NCBI GenBank assembly: GCA_022571575.1
Contig: JACZXN010000152.1
Location: 1-5,301 of the forward strand
Direction: 5' to 3'
Origin: Chloroflexota bacterium
GTDB lineage: Bacteria > Chloroflexota > Dehalococcoidia > UBA3495
Length of the DNA: 5,301 nt
In this document: piece by piece, positions 1-5,301 of the stretch
Layout of the letters: each line of letters begins with the position of its first letter
Numbering within the stretch: position 1 is the stretch's first letter
The notes under the pieces: model-generated
The model's input: only the letters and a program-made list of their open reading frames with translations
What the model was told of the DNA's origin: nothing
Databases searched by the model: none
Translations under genes and position numbers: made by a program

Positions 1-103
1 GGACATCCGTTCCATTGCGGTAATGTAGCGGATTCGAGCGCACCGCGGCGAAGTTGCGCACCCGCGGGTCTACCCCGATCACCCTCGACGCCGGTTCAGA
101 TGT
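1..103 (-). pseudogene. Fragment resembling formate dehydrogenase alpha / molybdopterin oxidoreductase
   Basis: Read on the minus strand, codons from 103 down to 2 are open and run off the left edge. They encode a stretch containing ASRVIGVDPRVRNFAAV, then an S-N-P-L-H-Y-R-N-G-T-D-V tail. This resembles the conserved block in the middle of the bis-MGD oxidoreductases, where a Rossmann-like strand ends in V-DPR and is followed by L-R-P/N-G-T-D-(V/I)-A (E. coli FdhF has a matching VCDPR...LKNGSN block). In the full enzyme several hundred residues precede this block. Here an in-frame TAG (104-106) lies only nine codons before the VIGVDPR motif, and I see no continuation in the other minus frames. 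It is therefore probably a 5'-truncated remnant, a frameshifted gene or an assembly joint. A GTG at 80-82 could be read as a start but would lie inside a conserved strand. Assignment rests on motif memory over about 34 residues only. Confidence 0.45.
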
Positions 104-106
104 CTA

Positions 107-396
107 ACGGATCAGCGACAAGCAGTGTTGGGTAGCACCGCCGGGTCTGAAAAGGTTGTTGCCAAAAGGTATAGCAGTCATTGCGACGCGCTATTCACTT
201 CCGTCTTCTTCGGCTTGTTATGCTGTGGCTCGCCCAAACGGTGTAAGCTGCCGAGCGGGACAGAATGAATCGACGTGGGAATACGGCTTTATTCGCCGAC
301 GTAGCCGATTTCCGCATCGCAGCTTCGAGCAATAGGTGATAAACGCGGAGGCTAACGCAGGTTACCCATCCCGGTCGTTATCGAACCGTCGGCTCC
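107..396. other. Intergenic stretch with no recognised gene
   Basis: About 290 bases with no convincing coding region on either strand. One plus-strand frame is open from 29 to 265, but it has no ATG and its translation resembles nothing I know. No tRNA, Rho-independent terminator or MerR-type operator dyad was found. A weak CGGCT (284-288) / AGCCG (303-307) inverted repeat and two CGACGT copies (271-276, 297-302) are present but short enough to be chance. The promoter for the gene at 397 should lie here, yet I see no pair of boxes good enough to call. Confidence 0.5.
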
Positions 397-600
397 ATGA
401 GTGAGGTGATGCTTCAGTCCACGAATACGTGCCCGGCGTGCAGCCAGGAGGAAACGGAGACGATGCCCACGAACGCGTGTCAGTTCTTCTGGGAGTGTCC
501 CTCGTGTAAGGTCGTCACGCGCCCCAAAGAAGGAGACTGTTGCGTGTTCTGCTCTTACGCCGACTCGAAGTGCCCGATGCAGCAGGCGCCGGCGATCTGA
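397..600 (+). CDS. GDCCVxC-type small Cys-rich protein (mercury-associated family)
   Basis: A 67-residue protein with nine cysteines: CPAC at 12-15, Cys28 in TNACQFFWEC, Cys34 and Cys37 in ECPSC, the signature GDCCVFC at 46-52, and Cys59. This matches the small family known as GDCCVxC domain-containing (seleno)proteins, often found beside mer genes. In some members a Cys is replaced by Sec; here all are ordinary TGT/TGC codons. The family usually has a C-terminal CPPIQ; here it is CPMQQ. It has no signal peptide or membrane segment, so it is presumably cytosolic. A role in binding or passing a soft metal such as Hg is inferred from cysteine content and company, not known. The 397 ATG is preferred because homologues start M-S/T-x-(V/I)-x-L-x-S-T-x-T-C-P. 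The ATG at 409 would have its GAGGTG directly abutting, which is too close. The Shine-Dalgarno sequence before 397 is poor. It is followed after 79 bases by the MerB-family gene on the same strand. Confidence 0.85.
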   Translation: MSEVMLQSTNTCPACSQEETETMPTNACQFFWECPSCKVVTRPKEGDCCVFCSYADSKCPMQQAPAI

Positions 601-605
601 GCGGA

Positions 606-647
606 CCGGCTGAAAGTTTCATGGCCTTACGGTGCGCCGTCAGCCGG
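606..647 (+). repeat. 8-bp perfect inverted repeat between the GDCCVxC and MerB-like genes
   Basis: CCGGCTGA at 606-613 is exactly complementary to TCAGCCGG at 640-647, with 26 bases between. The loop holds a nested ACGG-TGCG-CCGT mini-hairpin (629-640) that competes for the last base. It starts five bases after the GDCCVxC stop codon and ends 20 bases before the ribosome binding site of the next gene. There is no T-run after it, so it is not a classical terminator. It may be an mRNA-stabilising, processing or operator structure. Confidence 0.4.
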
Positions 648-679
648 ATACCAGCCAAGATTCCAACGGGGAGTAGACG

Positions 680-1540
680 ATGGACGAGAAAGCGGTCGAG
701 AGATTGCTCATCAGCGATTGGGCGTCGGGGTTGCGGATCACCACCGTTCCCCAGGCGATGAGCCGGCTCGGTATAGCCGATGATCTGGAGGCTCGGTGGG
801 AATTGGCGAACCGGATGGGCGCTCTGTGGCATAGCACGTTGGAGACGCCGGAGAAGATTCGGGAGGTCCATTCGGCCATCGGTTTGCTGGCCGATGAGGA
901 GCGCGCAGCCCTTTCGCAACATTGGCGTGAACAGGTAGGTACCTGGGACCGGGCGTCCATACTGCTGACCGAAAACGAGAAGCTGATGGCGCGTCATATC
1001 CTATGGGGTCAGAGACACGGCTCACATCTGCCATCCCCTGAAGACATCGGCGCTGCCGTGGACATCGGACCCGAGGAAACGGCCAACGGGATCCGGATAT
1101 TGACTTGGCTCGGCTTCTTGGTTCTACCCGACGGCCAATCTGTGGACACCTACACCCTGGCCGAGGACCACGCGAGGTTTCTCGACGGACTGGGTTTCTC
1201 GTTCCACACCGTGACATTGGACGGCGAGGAGCGCTTCGGCATACCTTGAGCCATCGACTTCCTGCTGTTGGTCAACAGCCAATACCGCGAGCACCGGATC
1301 AAGCTGGAAGACGCCTGTGCCCACTGCGCTGACCGTATCTTTATCGAAGCAGACCGGGGGAAACTCACCCAGGTGTCGCCCGCAACAGCCGTGGTCCACC
1401 GAGGCGGCACTTGAGGCCAAAACAACCTCTTCCGGTCGGAGGAGCACCTCAGGGAATGGAACGGTGGCGAATACCCGGAGCCGGGCGCCTGGATGCCGGT
1501 GGCGGGGATACTGGAACAGATCACGGCAAGATATTCGTAG
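680..1540 (+). CDS. merB: MerB-family organomercurial lyase-like protein, predicted double selenoprotein (Sec190, Sec245)
   Basis: Reading frame of 287 codons (286 residues) containing in-frame TGA at 1247-1249 and 1412-1414 and ending at TAG 1538-1540. A good GGGGAG ribosome site (668-673) lies 6 bases before the ATG. Residues 1-95 are a helical extension absent from MerB. Residues 96-165 resemble the MerB winged-helix part (PSPEDIGAAVDIGPEETANG). Residues 175-286 align with the MerB catalytic core: FGIP-U190-A-I-D193 corresponds to MerB W-C96-A-L-D99, CAHC (213-216) falls near Cys117, and T-U245-GQNNLFRSEEHLREW corresponds to C159-HVHFFASVPTAEDW. In MerB, Cys96, Cys159 and Asp99 cleave the C-Hg bond. 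Both cysteines are TGA here and the Asp is kept. A SECIS-like hairpin follows each TGA. Protonolysis of organomercury or a related organometal is inferred. The symbol is at family level; it may belong to the MerB-like selenoproteins (Sao-type) I recall from curated families. The alternative is a decayed gene with two nonsense mutations. Confidence 0.85.
1247..1279 (+). promoter_or_regulatory. UGA(Sec190) codon with SECIS-like hairpin, GGUC loop
   Basis: Downstream of the TGA at 1247, GCTGTT (1264-1269) pairs perfectly with AACAGC (1274-1279) around the loop GGTC (1270-1273). Counting the U of UGA as 1, the loop sits at 24-27. In the E. coli fdhF SECIS the same GGUC loop sits at 22-25. A T lies at position 17 just below the stem (1263), where fdhF has its bulged U; whether it is truly bulged here cannot be decided by eye. 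The hairpin is inside the coding sequence, as bacterial SECIS elements are, and would recruit SelB with Sec-tRNA. Confidence 0.75.
1412..1444 (+). promoter_or_regulatory. UGA(Sec245) codon with SECIS-like hairpin, GGUC loop
   Basis: After the TGA at 1412, CTCTTCC (1427-1433) pairs with GGAGGAG (1438-1444) over seven base pairs, one a U-G wobble, around the loop GGTC (1434-1437). Counting from the U of UGA the loop lies at 23-26, within one base of the first element in this gene and of E. coli fdhF. U residues at positions 17 and 19 are candidates for the SelB-contacted U. Two independent hairpins with the same loop at the same distance from two TGAs support recoding rather than termination. 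Confidence 0.75.
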
Positions 1541-1560
1541 TCACGCCGCTCGACGGGGCG

Positions 1561-1579
1561 AATAGCCAGGCCGGTTATT
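1561..1579 (+). terminator. Weak hairpin after the MerB-like gene
   Basis: AATAGCC (1561-1567) can pair with GGTTATT (1573-1579) over seven pairs, one G-U, with loop AGGCC. It sits 20 bases after the TAG of the MerB-like gene, in the 60-base gap before the convergent metallophosphoesterase gene. Pairing is better on the plus-strand RNA than on the minus. No U-run follows, so termination would be weak or Rho-dependent. Confidence 0.25.
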
Positions 1580-1600
1580 GGGTGTCTTGGTGGGAAATGC

Positions 1601-2320
1601 CTAGTTGATGGCCACCTGATGATGGGAAACCCCGCTCCGCGGGTCCAGGTCAACCACCGTCACCTCTCCGGCGCCGGGGCTTCCGATGGGGCCGAGAGGG
1701 CATCCCGAATACACCGCCGTCACGTTCCCCTGGGACACGTCCACGTGGCGGTCCCAGTGGCCCAGGGCCAGGTAGTGGCAGGCGGCGTCGGCGACTTCCT
1801 GGGGGTAGATGGGGGAAGACCTTTGGTCCCGGTCCTCTTCGTAATGGAAATGGCCGTGGGCCAAGGCCACCAGCCAATTGTCCGCAACGGGCGGAGGCAT
1901 CCCTTCCAGGGGCTTGAATTCCGGGGTATGCATGGGCATGGCCCGTCCCCAAAGATCGATGCCCAGACCGGGGAATGACAGCAGTTCGCCCTCGGTCCCC
2001 CTGAAGACGAATAGGTTGTCCGGGGCGTGCTTGAAGGGCTCTCGATGATATACCGAGGTCTCGTGAATCAGGTCATGGTTCCCCGGCAGCACCACCACCG
2101 GGGCCCGCACCCGGCCCATCTCACGCAGGAACCACTCCAGGACCTCGTCCGAGACCCGCTCGTTGTCGAAAACGTCCCCCACCAGCAGCAGCATATCGGC
2201 GCCGTTATGGGACACCGCGTCCACCACCGCGCTCAGCGCATCGGCCGACTGGGGATGGCCGGTGGAGTCGCCCAGATGGGTATCCGAAGTATGGATCAAT
2301 CGCAGTTTTTTGGCAGGCAT
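1601..2320 (-). CDS. Metallophosphoesterase, SbcD/Mre11-like DNA repair exonuclease family
   Basis: A 239-residue calcineurin-like phosphoesterase with the full set of metal-binding motifs in order: D13-T-H15 (SDTHLGD), GD49-VFDN, GNHD at 80-83, GHFH at 156-159 and GHWDRH at 187-192. These ligate a two-metal (usually Mn) centre. The order and the HTSDTHLG start resemble SbcD/Mre11/YhaO nucleases. The protein is shorter than E. coli SbcD (about 400 residues) and lacks a C-terminal capping domain, so it is a single-domain form. No SbcC-like ATPase is in the window, so nuclease activity and partner are unproven; it could be another phosphodiesterase. The ATG at 2318-2320 lies directly before the first beta strand, as expected. 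No strong ribosome site precedes it. It lies downstream of the CoA-transferase gene on the same strand, with 85 bases and a hairpin between, and converges on the MerB-like gene. Confidence 0.88.
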   Translation of the reverse strand: MPAKKLRLIHTSDTHLGDSTGHPQSADALSAVVDAVSHNGADMLLLVGDVFDNERVSDEVLEWFLREMGRVRAPVVVLPGNHDLIHETSVYHREPFKHAPDNLFVFRGTEGELLSFPGLGIDLWGRAMPMHTPEFKPLEGMPPPVADNWLVALAHGHFHYEEDRDQRSSPIYPQEVADAACHYLALGHWDRHVDVSQGNVTAVYSGCPLGPIGSPGAGEVTVVDLDPRSGVSHHQVAIN

Positions 2321-2376
2321 GTTCTTAGATCAGGCGCAGCTCTTTTGAAGGCAGGTTCACAGACCAGGATAAAGGG

Positions 2377-2391
2377 CGCCGGCAACCGGCG
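2377..2391 (-). terminator. Candidate terminator after the CoA-transferase gene
   Basis: On the minus-strand RNA, CGCCGG pairs with CCGGCG over six GC pairs with a TTG loop, 14 bases past the CoA-transferase stop. It is followed by CCC and TTTAT, which is a short U-tract displaced by three bases. This could terminate the CoA-transferase message before the phosphoesterase gene, partly or fully. The short stem and offset U-run keep confidence modest. Confidence 0.4.
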
Positions 2392-2405
2392 ACAAGGGTG
2401 TGGCC

Positions 2406-3596
2406 CTAGCTGCTGATAACCCCACGCTCCTTCAGGTCGGCGATCTTATCCGGCGAATAACCCGCTTCGCTCAGGATCTCCTCGTTGTGCTGGCCCAGGA
2501 GAGGCGGGACGCGACGGATCGTGGCCGGAGAGTCGGTTAGTTTCAACGGGGAACTGGGGAATTTCAGGTTGGGGATGTTGGGATGTTCCACTTCGGAAAT
2601 CATGTTGCGGGCCAACACCTGAGGATTCGAGACCACCTCCGAAACCGTGTTGATGGGGCCGCAGGGCACGCCAGCCTCGACGATCAACCCAACCCAGTGG
2701 TCGGTGGTGTTCTGCATGAACACTGCGTTTAGCTCACCCACACATTCGGCCCGGTGTTCCACCCGGTCGGTGTTGGTGGAGTACCGAGGGTCCTCCAACA
2801 TGCCGGACTGGCCGATGGCTTGGCACATGCGCTCCCATAGTCCCTGGTTGGCGCAGCCGATGATGAATTGGCCATTGGACGAAGAAAAACTCTGGTAGGG
2901 CACCAGGCTGGGGTGGCCCGAACCCATTCGCGTGGGCTCAACTCCCGTGCCCATGAAGCCGGTGGCATGGTAGCTCAGGGCCGCCACCTGCCCGTCCAGC
3001 AGAGCTGCTTCCACCCATTGCCCTTTGCCGGTCTGGTCCCGTTGCCGGAGGGCGGTCAAGATGGTGCCGTAGGCCATCATCCCCGTAAAAAGATCGACCA
3101 GGGAGAATCCGATCCGCAGGGGCGAGCCGTCCGGCTCGCCGGTCAGGCTCATCAGGCCGCTGTAGGCCTGGATCAACAGGTCGTAACCCGGCATGTCGGC
3201 CATGGGTCCAGTCCGGCCATACCCGGAAATGGAGCAATAAACGACACGAGGATTTATCTTTTTGATCTCATCGTAGCCGAGGCCCAACCGGTCCAGGGTC
3301 CCGGCGCGGAAACTTTCAATCATGACATCGGCATCGGCCGCCAGGTCCTTGACGATCTTGAGACCCTCCGGTTCTTTCAAGTCTATCGCGAGGCTGCGTT
3401 TGTTGCGGTTGAAAGTCAGGAACTGGGAACTCTCGCCGTTAATGAAGGGGGTCCAATTGCGTGTCTCGTCGCCGGCCGTCGGCTCTTCGATCTTGACCAC
3501 ATCGGCGCCCATGTCTCCCATCAACATGGTGCAGAAGGGACCGGCCAGTGTGCGGGTCAGGTCGACGACCTTTATGTTGTCCAACGCTGCAGCCAT
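2406..3596 (-). CDS. Class III CoA-transferase (CaiB/BaiF family)
   Basis: A 396-residue protein, the normal length for the family that includes formyl-CoA transferase, CaiB and alpha-methylacyl-CoA racemase. These enzymes move CoA between a carboxylic acid and an acyl-CoA through an aspartyl-CoA thioester, in the cytosol as interlocked dimers. Visible hallmarks are the N-terminal VVDLTRTLAGPFCTMLMGDMGADVVKIE-type start (residues 10-37, split here by description only), NRNKRSLAIDL at 63-73, VMIESFRAGTLDRLGLGY at 91-108, SISGYGRTGP at 122-131, PGYDLLIQAYSGLMSLTG at 136-153, and the likely catalytic Asp168 in SLVDLFTG. The substrate cannot be told from sequence. GGAG eight bases before the ATG supports this start. 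An extended -10 promoter lies upstream, divergent from the ribokinase gene. No acyl-CoA dehydrogenase or other pathway partner is nearby. Confidence 0.93.
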   Translation of the reverse strand: MAAALDNIKVVDLTRTLAGPFCTMLMGDMGADVVKIEEPTAGDETRNWTPFINGESSQFLTFNRNKRSLAIDLKEPEGLKIVKDLAADADVMIESFRAGTLDRLGLGYDEIKKINPRVVYCSISGYGRTGPMADMPGYDLLIQAYSGLMSLTGEPDGSPLRIGFSLVDLFTGMMAYGTILTALRQRDQTGKGQWVEAALLDGQVAALSYHATGFMGTGVEPTRMGSGHPSLVPYQSFSSSNGQFIIGCANQGLWERMCQAIGQSGMLEDPRYSTNTDRVEHRAECVGELNAVFMQNTTDHWVGLIVEAGVPCGPINTVSEVVSNPQVLARNMISEVEHPNIPNLKFPSSPLKLTDSPATIRRVPPLLGQHNEEILSEAGYSPDKIADLKERGVISS

Positions 3597-3633
3597 TTTT
3601 GACTCTCCGGGATTATCGGTTTCGTACGTGGTC

Positions 3634-3653
3634 CAGGCGTCCGAAAACGCCTG
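3634..3653 (-). repeat. Inverted repeat at the presumed transcription start of the CoA-transferase gene
   Basis: CAGGCGT (3634-3640) and ACGCCTG (3647-3653) are perfectly complementary, seven pairs with a six-base loop. On the minus strand it begins four bases downstream of the TATAAT box, so it overlaps the expected +1. It may be a repressor operator or a hairpin at the very 5' end of the mRNA. It is too far from the coding start (38 bases) to block the ribosome directly. Confidence 0.45.
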
Positions 3654-3657
3654 CGCG

Positions 3658-3668
3658 ATTATAGCATG
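3658..3668 (-). promoter_or_regulatory. Extended -10 promoter (TGCTATAAT) for the CoA-transferase gene
   Basis: On the minus strand the sequence reads TGCTATAAT: a perfect TATAAT (plus-strand 3658-3663) with the TGn extension upstream. There is no recognisable -35 box at 16-18 bases, where the DNA is G-rich on this strand. That is typical of extended -10 promoters. Transcription would begin near 3651, giving a leader of about 55 bases. Confidence 0.5.
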
Positions 3669-3698
3669 GGCTCACCTGCCACCCCCGCCACCACCTGA

Positions 3699-3727
3699 TT
3701 GACCCTCCTGGCCGCTGGTGCTAGCGT
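3699..3727 (+). promoter_or_regulatory. Possible promoter for the ribokinase gene
   Basis: TTGACC (3699-3704) matches the -35 consensus at five of six positions. With a 17-base spacer it is followed by TAGCGT (3722-3727), a poor -10 with three of six matches. It lies 24 bases before the ATG at 3751, or 45 before the ATG at 3772. The latter start would give a more comfortable leader. Confidence 0.25.
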
Positions 3728-3750
3728 GGTAGCCGCCAAAGGCCTGCCCC

Positions 3751-4725
3751 ATGGACGTGACTTGGCGTGAAATGACCCAACAACCACCGAAGATCATAGT
3801 TCTGGGCGGGATCAACATGGACCTGGTGACATTTTCGCCCCGGTTCCCCCAGCCGGGGGAGACGGTGGTGGGGACGCGCTTCCTGACCTACGCCGGGGGC
3901 AAGGGCGCCAACCAGGCCGTGGCCGCCGCCCGCATGGGCGCCAGGTCCGTCATGGTGGGACGGGTCGGCGGGGATATCTTCGGCCCCCAGTTGCTGGACG
4001 GCCTGGCGGCGGCGGGCGTGGACATCTCCGGCGTCGGCGTCAACCCGGACGCCAGCTCAGGGATCGCGGTCATCGGCGTCGATGAGACGGCGCAGAACTG
4101 CATCACCCAGGTCCTCGGCGCCAACGCCACCTGCGGTCCCGAGCAGGCGGCGGCGGTCAGGCGGGCGCTGCCGGGAACCGCCGCGCTGCTGCTGCAATTG
4201 GAAGTCGCGCCGGAGCTGTCCTTGGAGACCGCGCGGGAAGCCAGGGCCCAGGGCGTCGCCGTCATGCTGGACCCAGGGCCGGTCAGGCCGCTTCCCGACG
4301 GGTTGTTGAGTCTCTGCGACGTTCTCACGCCCAACGAGACCGAGGCCCAGGCGCTGGTGGGGTTCCCCGTGACCGGGCCGGAGTCGGCCGCCAGGGCCGC
4401 CTCGGCCCTGCTGGAACAGGGGGTTGGGACGGTGGTGGTCAAGCTGGGGGACCAGGGCGCCTACTTCGCCAACGACAATAGCCGCGGCGTCGTCCCGCCC
4501 TTCAATGTGGACGCCGTGGACTCGGTGGCGGCGGGCGACGCCTTCAACGGGGCGCTGGCGGTCTCGCTGGCGGAGGGCCTGAACCTGGAAGCAGCGGTGA
4601 CCGTGGCCTGCGCCGCCGGAGCGTTGGCCGTGACCCAGACCGGGGCCCAGGACTCCATGCCACAGCGCCGGCTGGTCGAGGAACTGCTGCGAAGTCAGCG
4701 GCCCCGGACCCGCCGCACCAGGTAA
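3751..4725 (+). CDS. rbsK: Ribokinase, PfkB carbohydrate kinase family
   Basis: A 324-residue PfkB-family sugar kinase that transfers phosphate from ATP to the 5-hydroxyl of a sugar, most likely D-ribose. Landmarks: LGGINMDLV (18-26), the substrate-binding GGKGANQAVAAARMG (49-63), the S/T-G-x-A region (102-107), LLQLE (147-151), DPGPVRPLPD (174-183), TPNETEA (193-199), and the C-terminal signature AAGDAFNGAL (260-269) with catalytic base Asp263 and the anion-hole glycine. Similarity to E. coli RbsK appears even along the length. Residues 1-13 precede the usual N-terminus, so translation may start instead at the ATG at 3772 (residue 8). Neither start has a strong ribosome site. No ribose transporter or repressor is adjacent. 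A few other PfkB sugars (deoxyribose, for example) cannot be excluded. The last 31 bases overlap the 3' end of the convergent membrane-protein gene. Confidence 0.9.
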   Translation: MDVTWREMTQQPPKIIVLGGINMDLVTFSPRFPQPGETVVGTRFLTYAGGKGANQAVAAARMGARSVMVGRVGGDIFGPQLLDGLAAAGVDISGVGVNPDASSGIAVIGVDETAQNCITQVLGANATCGPEQAAAVRRALPGTAALLLQLEVAPELSLETAREARAQGVAVMLDPGPVRPLPDGLLSLCDVLTPNETEAQALVGFPVTGPESAARAASALLEQGVGTVVVKLGDQGAYFANDNSRGVVPPFNVDAVDSVAAGDAFNGALAVSLAEGLNLEAAVTVACAAGALAVTQTGAQDSMPQRRLVEELLRSQRPRTRRTR

Positions 4726-5301
4726 CGGGCCGGCACGGCCAGCAGAGCGGCGGCCCACACCATCATCGCCAGGGTGAAGACCCACCAGTAGGGCGGCCAG
4801 TTGATCCCGGCGGCGATCCCCAGGGAGACCATGAAGGCCGCGAAGGAGATGACTTTGACGGCGAACGAACGCCTCAGCCTCCCCGGCTCAAGGTCTACCA
4901 CCGCGAGGTAAGCCATCGTCACGGCCAGCGCCGTCACGATGGCCGCGCTCTTCCAGAAGCCGTCCGAGTTGGGCGTCGCCCAGACCCCGGTTAAGATCAG
5001 CAGCAGGGCGGCCCCGCCGAACACCAGCGCAACCTGGGGCACGGCCAGGCCGGGCCGCCGCCGCGCCGCCCAAACCGGTCCCAGGCTGAACAGGAAGTAG
5101 GCCCCGAACACCACGGCCGTGAGCAAGAGCCGGCCTCTGGTCTTGGTGTACTCACCCAGCACCACCATGGCGATGACGATCACCACCGCCATGACCGACG
5201 ACGCCAGAAAGCCCGCCGCGTAGGCGTTGGGGGCCAGGAGACGCCTGAATCGCCGCCAGGGTCCGATGTTCTGCCTCCGCTGCCCTATCCCGAATTGAGT
5301 T
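4695..5301 (-). CDS. Six-helix integral membrane protein, partial (5' end outside window)
   Basis: About 201 residues are visible and the frame is open to the right edge. No ATG, GTG or TTG lies in frame between the edge and the Met codon at 5190-5192. That Met falls inside a hydrophobic helix (GFLASSVMAVVIVIAMVVL), so it is not the likely start, and the gene extends beyond the window. There are six predicted membrane segments, separated by short Arg-rich loops such as WAARRRPG and DLEPGRLRRS. An Arg-rich tail (YLVRRVRGR) ends the protein. The visible N-terminal part before helix 1 is basic (RRQNIGPWRRFRR), suggesting a cytoplasmic side. I do not recognise the family and no catalytic motif stands out. 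It is convergent with and overlaps the end of the ribokinase gene. Confidence 0.75.
   Translation of the reverse strand, partial: TQFGIGQRRQNIGPWRRFRRLLAPNAYAAGFLASSVMAVVIVIAMVVLGEYTKTRGRLLLTAVVFGAYFLFSLGPVWAARRRPGLAVPQVALVFGGAALLLILTGVWATPNSDGFWKSAAIVTALAVTMAYLAVVDLEPGRLRRSFAVKVISFAAFMVSLGIAAGINWPPYWWVFTLAMMVWAAALLAVPARYLVRRVRGR

Follow-up and report, generated by a model that had tools for sequence, protein, structure and literature searches.

The analysed window, a stretch of 5,301 nucleotides from a Chloroflexota bacterium (assembly GCA_022571575.1, contig JACZXN010000152.1, positions 1 to 5,301 of the forward strand), contains a MerB-like gene with two in-frame UGA codons, each followed by a predicted selenocysteine insertion sequence (SECIS) hairpin (Table 1). 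The initial annotation held that the frame opened at 680 runs past TGA 1247 and TGA 1412 to the TAG at 1538, and that both TGAs encode selenocysteine (Sec) in place of the two catalytic cysteines of MerB. Translation of the window confirmed the frame: from the ATG at 680 it contains exactly two internal stops, each of them TGA, in the contexts Pro-UGA (residues 189-190) and Thr-UGA (residues 244-245).

Table 1. Features of the double-UGA gene and its surroundings in the window
Feature	Position	Strand	Description
Double-UGA MerB-like gene	680..1540	+	286 residues if both UGAs are read through; ends at the TAG at 1538-1540
Shine-Dalgarno-like GGGGAG	668..673	+	6 nt ahead of the ATG; assigned from sequence alone
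In-frame UGA 1	1247..1249	+	Residue 190; aligned with MerB Cys96; predicted Sec
Asp193 codon	1256..1258	+	Aligned with MerB Asp99
Hairpin 1, predicted SECIS	1264..1279	+	6-bp stem; GGUC loop at 1270-1273; 20 nt past UGA 1
In-frame UGA 2	1412..1414	+	Residue 245; aligned with MerB Cys159; predicted Sec
Hairpin 2, predicted SECIS	1427..1444	+	7-bp stem; GGUC loop at 1434-1437; 19 nt past UGA 2; encodes LFRSEE
GDCCVxC protein, Cys form	397..600	+	67 residues; NF041374, 87.2 bits (cut-off 40); directly upstream of the double-UGA gene

The essential residues of MerB are Cys96, Cys159 and Asp99 (PMC8261052). The Pfam MerB domain (PF03243) matches residues 176-278 of the read-through protein (E-value 2.6e-9; 37.5 bits, gathering score 27), a region that spans both TGAs and has the fold of the MerB catalytic domain. 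Profile-profile alignment with hhalign (probability 67.8, E-value 4.9e-5) against two conventional MerB proteins, from the relatives' loci L001 and L002, places residue 190 on the Cys of their 'WC-A-W-D' motif and residue 245 on the Cys of 'NFC'. The same two residues of the L001 protein align with the Cys of 'WCALD' and 'SFC' in the solved MerB 1s6l. The assignment of the first TGA to Cys96, with Asp99 retained as Asp193, agrees with these alignments. At the second site the Cys159 register of residue 245 was recovered as well, while the peptide match originally given for it fell one residue short, the solved MerB reading C-C-H-V-H-F-F. Asp193 is invariant in an 11-row alignment of the window's family, and three columns are invariant across 17 rows of several MerB subfamilies: C/U190, C/U245 and Ser253. 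None of the tested read-through proteins reached the NCBIfam (release 20) cut-off for MerB or for the MerB-like selenoprotein SaoL, and P0001 and P0059 are not listed above the curated cut-off of the MerB equivalog NF009710; this is a weak test, since the conventional MerB of L001 also misses the MerB cut-off (159.1 versus 193).

A protein search yielded 56 relatives. Most of them (53) stop immediately short of residue 190; in the remaining three (P0034, P0050 and P0052) residue 190 is Cys and the sequence breaks off just short of 245. For eight relatives the DNA itself was read, namely L001-L007, from metagenome-assembled genomes of Chloroflexi, SAR202 or Dehalococcoidia, and L046. Both TGAs are present at both columns in all eight, at identities down to 35%, and the gap between them is 54 codons in every case. 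Another relative, P0058, 39-40% identical, has Cys at both columns; it was the only protein returned by a domain-only search, in which P0050 and P0052 were expected but not matched. Among the relatives, only Cys or TGA was seen at the two catalytic columns, a check that the initial annotation had proposed. P0058 still carries LFRSEE after the second site and has perhaps returned from Sec to Cys, to judge from its sequence.

In the closer relatives selection is similar on the codons ahead of the UGAs, between them and past them. The ratios of nonsynonymous to synonymous substitution rates (dN/dS) for the three segments are 0.22, 0.27 and 0.13 against L001, 0.18, 0.15 and 0.22 against L002, and 0.11, 0.25 and 0.20 against L005; against L004 they are 0.12 before and 0.14 after the UGAs, the middle value not being computable. 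Values against L006, L007 and L046 (0.21-0.91) say little, since synonymous change is near saturation. The copy in L003 (7980-8840), left out of this test and of the tree, is degraded, with a TAA, a TAG and an extra TGA; both catalytic TGAs are still kept in it. The conserved positions, the constant gap and the selection pattern uphold the view that the TGAs did not arise by random decay.

Hairpins 1 and 2 read GCUGUU-GGUC-AACAGC and CUCUUCC-GGUC-GGAGGAG, their loops starting 20 and 19 nt after the respective UGA. A published bacterial SECIS (bSECIS) model specifies a loop of 3-9 nt, a stem of 4-16 bp, a spacing of 16-37, a minimum free energy (MFE) <= -7.5 and a G within the first two loop positions (PMC13188914). 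Hairpin 2 satisfies this model (4-nt loop, 7 bp, GGUC, spacing 19, -8.8), and the geometry of hairpin 1 fits it (4-nt loop, 6 bp, GGUC, spacing 20), its energy alone lying above the limit. Statistics from the window alone are modest for each site, so the case for the hairpins rests on conservation. Alignment A6 comprised 33 of the 34 extracted sequences (L112 was dropped, its hairpin being different). Among the 32 distinct rows for site 2, 95.5% of cells are paired, against 46-62% when the stem is slid by 1-3 columns; 10 cells have changed on both sides, where shuffling gives a mean of 2.1 and no value as high in 500 shuffles, and three pairs show both-side change (38/500 shuffles as high). 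At site 1 (7 distinct rows) the paired fraction is 97.6% (12-74% when slid), and 3 cells show a C-G/U-A exchange (16/500 shuffles as high).

Homologues with Cys codons provide a second comparison, the controls being 20 pattern matches among 29 scanned loci (L068-L096). The GGUC hairpin is the best structure in 22 of the 24 fetched loci with UGA at the Cys159 column, and the median hairpin energy at this site is -8.8 with UGA (n=24) versus -2.5 at a Cys codon (n=20; p 2.6e-8). The corresponding medians at the Cys96 site are -6.5 (n=7) and -3.05 (n=20; p 0.008). The LFRSEE peptide looks like a footprint of the Cys159-site hairpin: it occurs in none of the 20 Cys homologues, and in 15 of these at most one pair forms at the corresponding offset. 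A 4-bp stem is found at the same offset in three of the 20, and the Cys MerBs L078 and L086 have an 8-bp stem at this offset past the Cys159 codon.

The presence of Sec machinery, proposed earlier as a check on the selenoenzyme prediction, was examined in the genomes of L001-L007 by searching for four Sec genes. Scores over the cut-off were obtained for tRNA-Sec, selA and selD in six of the seven genomes and for selB in five. The tRNA-Sec model alone also matches other tRNAs; ARAGORN identified tRNA-Sec with anticodon TCA in those six genomes. The SelD of each selD-bearing relative genome has its own TGA, followed in four of six cases (L033, L034, L035 and L037) by a hairpin with a GGUC tip. 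In addition, selA is over the cut-off in G125, the genome of L046. Sec machinery is present in most relatives' genomes; in G006, the genome of L006, nothing exceeded the cut-off. This genome carries a second copy of the gene, L063, at a contig end. G006 may be an incomplete bin or may genuinely lack Sec machinery.

Overall, the position and conservation of the UGAs, the Cys found there in homologues, the hairpins and the machinery in relatives' genomes make selenocysteine the likely reading of both codons. The gene at 680-1540 is, with a probability of about 0.85, a MerB-family protein with two likely Sec residues and a predicted carbon-mercury (or similar carbon-metal) lyase. The replacement of both catalytic thiolates by selenolates, as first proposed, is thus supported, with Sec predicted from sequence and SECIS-type hairpins after both UGAs. 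Mercury is suggested as the substrate by kinship with MerB.

Several observations weigh against this interpretation. The stop letter is readable for the DNA relatives alone, most of the 56 having been seen as protein. Hairpin 1 alone has -5.4 kcal/mol, above the -7.5 limit (a 46-nt fold reaches -7.9); synonymous resampling in the window gives p 0.10 for UGA 1 and 0.031 for UGA 2, and by hairpin the two sites rank only 29th and 15th of 266 window positions, ties being split by position. Further pair types are no higher than in shuffles at both sites, and neither is the site 1 count of pairs changing on both sides (432/500). The structure model has low whole-model TM-scores to MerB (0.30-0.32 by query length) and is least confident at residues 243-245. 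All four Sec genes (selA, selB, selD and tRNA-Sec) are below the cut-off in G006 despite its double-UGA gene. The association of selA with TGA status is not significant (20/20 TGA-bearing versus 29/35 Cys-only genomes, p 0.056) in a comparison of 55 of the 59 genomes with MerB matches (G004, tested before, and G060, G132 and G332, with weak matches, were omitted); adding eight first-family genomes gives 27/28 and p 0.094. The selA gene is common regardless, being over the cut-off in 42 of 49 genomes of the family of G001. Finally, no MerA was seen in the partly scanned flanks.

The alternative that survives best, although it is unlikely, accepts both Sec residues and denies carbon-metal cleavage, the protein serving instead for metal or metalloid binding or carrying, or for diselenol redox chemistry. 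Its N-terminal part is unlike MerB, the MerB domain beginning only at residue 176; it lies under all NCBIfam MerB and SaoL cut-offs, no mer operon was seen around the gene in the partly scanned flanks, and the Asp99 column of another double-UGA subfamily, clade b, is mostly Glu. Against this, Asp193 and both nucleophile columns are retained in the window's family, and in G001 and G002 the second gene upstream is a conventional merB.

It is improbable that in the window's organism efficient reading as Sec is confined to one UGA, more likely UGA 2, and that UGA 1 mostly terminates translation. This would suit the weaker hairpin 1 (-5.4 versus -8.8, with a synonymous test at p 0.10) and the prevalence of a single UGA at Cys159 among the TGA-bearing MerBs outside the window's family (17/24 fetched). 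However, UGA 1, its spacing and the GGUC loop are kept in 9/9 sequences, with the C-G/U-A exchange in the stem, and since UGA 1 lies upstream of UGA 2, it has to be read for an active site to be made at all.

The hairpins might reflect only the conserved peptides LLLV and LFRSEE and play no part in translation, in which case Sec insertion, if it occurs, would depend on other signals. Both stems lie entirely within coding sequence, pairs that never vary make up 3/7 at site 2 and 3/6 at site 1, and the 8-bp and 4-bp stems in two and three of the 20 Cys homologues stand at the same offset. This explanation was nevertheless rejected as very improbable: the paired changes include a synonymous TCG to TCA opposite CGG to TGG, an identical GGUC loop stands after UGA 1, where the encoded peptide is different, and the Cys homologues differ in peptide, pairing and Cys159-site energy as described above.

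Two further explanations were rejected as having hardly any likelihood. True stops, which would make the gene either a pseudogene or the source of a functional protein of 189 residues that lacks the MerB active site, would fit the gene callers, which end 53 of the 56 relatives there, and the plainly degraded L003, but not the selection on post-UGA codons in closer relatives, of the same kind as before the UGAs, or the TGA stops at catalytic columns in 8/8 loci where homologues have Cys. Genome-wide recoding of UGA to Cys or Trp without selenium would, in the case of Cys, restore the active site seen in homologues, but TGA is the terminal stop of two other genes in the window and of the gene itself in L002, L004 and L006, tRNA-Sec, selA and selD occur in 6/7 relatives' genomes, and Trp is absent from these columns in the homologues seen.

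If the protein is the predicted double-Sec lyase, the GGUC-loop hairpin 19-20 nt past each UGA would bring SelB with Sec-tRNA(Sec), as in the bacterial SECIS mechanism. By analogy with MerB, the pair of selenolates would bind the metal in the way the thiolate pair of that enzyme does, and Asp193, the counterpart of Asp99, would take part in cleavage of the carbon-metal bond. Tighter binding of Hg by selenolates would make product release costly, so that an acceptor is expected; the freed Hg(II) would be handed on to a thiol acceptor, for which the upstream GDCCVxC protein is a candidate.

The window holds the last two genes of an order found in G001 and G002: conventional merB, GDCCVxC gene and double-UGA gene. 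The GDCCVxC gene stands in the same place in L001 (about 7760-7954) and L002 (about 7754-7942) and was not found in the other six of eight genomes. A GMC oxidoreductase gene is directly upstream in L003 and L005, and in L006 a gene with heavy-metal-associated and CopZ zinc-binding domains lies 2 kb downstream. The neighbours at 1601-5300 of the window encode a calcineurin-like phosphoesterase, a CoA-transferase family III protein, a ribokinase-like kinase and a predicted membrane protein; this downstream gene order is common to the window, L001 and L005, with protein identities of 59-90%, so that the window very probably belongs to the group of these relatives. An Rfam scan of the window gave three sub-threshold matches to unrelated families only, and a tRNA search of the window gave none. 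The double-UGA gene is patchily distributed, occurring in 5 of 50 genomes of the family of G001.

When 400 Chloroflexota genomes were searched with PF03243, 59 of them yielded a total of 73 matches: 45 without a stop, 18 with one TGA, 8 with two TGAs, one with a TAG and one with a TAA. TGA-bearing matches therefore number 26, of which 24 were fetched anew, the other two belonging to G004; MerB homologues with TGA at catalytic columns include L048, L049, L051, L053 and L055. All 31 TGAs in the 24 fetched loci fall on catalytic columns, the Cys96 column taking 7 of them and the Cys159 column 24 (a TGA failing the first-site pattern was labelled C159 by default, and the printed contexts agree for all 24). 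A single-protein scan of genome contigs and a scan of viral contigs had no useful outcome. The TAG match, L122 (G303:C30:238-606), has Cys at both catalytic columns and the in-frame TAG near its end; it is probably a broken copy and was excluded from the TGA counts.

Cys96 with UGA at 159 is found in 17 of the 24 fetched loci, mostly in sequences like 'NCAWDALG...YTUGTMLLFRSEEH'. The single-UGA loci L098-L111 and L113 all have LFRSEE-type hairpin letters, and the two such proteins tested, L099 and L104, are above no NCBIfam cut-off. A near-classical MerB at L112 (407-1075, + strand) has U-C in place of C159-C160 of the E. coli MerB and a different hairpin, with loop CGUGA and spacing 24; it looks like a separate gain of Sec, judging by these sequence features. 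The remaining seven fetched loci and L060 of G004 have two UGAs and are spread over two other subfamilies (L060, L115, L117-L119; L116, L120, L121), with the motifs 'AQUGFESLA...UxxMNLFRSEEH' and 'AAUAIDAIAV...FURKSVFFWSEEH'; G189 alone has three genes of these further subfamilies.

In a tree of 56 rows the window's family forms a single clade with support of 100/100, made up of 8 double-UGA rows and P0058. Double-UGA MerBs fall into three clades, and the label needs 4 changes, at least 3 of them forced by well supported branches. The Cys96-site hairpins differ among the clades (spacing 20, 17 and 26), and the Cys159-site hairpin is of one kind. Our reading of the tree suggests that Sec159 is older and that Sec96 was added more than once. 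A wider proposal, to which we would give even odds, is that selenium organometal lyases occur throughout the Chloroflexota, with an old Sec159 and a shared SECIS dictating LFRSEE, Sec96 gained separately in three clades with their own hairpins, and diselenolate sites that would cleave carbon-mercury bonds.

If the prediction for the window gene is true, selenium supplies both of the nucleophiles with which a carbon-metal lyase binds its metal, and nature offers a test of the selenolate effect on Hg-C cleavage and product release; synthetic selones are reported to react faster than their sulfur analogues in organomercurial-lyase mimics (PMC11639659). The double-UGA MerB would also allow the insertion of two Sec residues into a single short protein to be tested directly. 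An ocean survey dropped merB sequences without Cys96, Asp99, Cys117 or Cys159 (PMC12874090), and would miss such genes because it required the catalytic Cys. Owing to this filter, and to database relatives cut before the active site, methylmercury breakdown by Chloroflexota may be undercounted; if the phylum-wide proposal is true, surveys demanding Cys at the catalytic positions are blind to selenium organometal lyases.

MerB of the E. coli R831b type (PF03243; PDB 1s6l, 3f0o) shares with the window protein the C-terminal domain, the fold, the Asp99 column and the two nucleophile columns. Unlike it, the window gene has UGA for both catalytic Cys codons, a longer and different N-terminal part, and LFRSEE after the second site in place of a VHFFAS-type peptide. 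MerB2 (PDB 5c17), which ranks first among PDB matches by sequence, by profile and by Foldseek E-value, has Cys at both columns and Ser where the window's family has Asp.

An alkylmercury lyase MerB-like selenoprotein is listed in PMC9312934, and the Sao-type MerB-like selenoproteins mentioned in the initial annotation do exist: in the covered portion of the 2026 inventory PMC13188914, SaoL is the sole MerB relative among 119 families, with one Sec in a CU motif. No double-Sec MerB was found in Creative Commons-licensed PubMed Central literature, parts 1-2 of 3 of section 7 of PMC13188914, NCBIfam release 20 or a deep-Sep term search (PMC12013277), a scope outside which Haft and Gwadz 2023 and Haft and Tolstoy 2025 lie. 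Two Sec per protein are described for MbdU, MduS and the NF041115 metal-binding protein (PMC13188914, same portion), which have other domains. SaoL (NF040728) is likewise MerB-related with predicted Sec and matches the window protein weakly, over residues 176-239 (22.9 bits, cut-off 140). Its single Sec stands in a Cys-Sec pair, whereas the window protein has two UGAs, neither in such a pair, and is filed as a predicted double-Sec variant within the MerB family rather than as SaoL.
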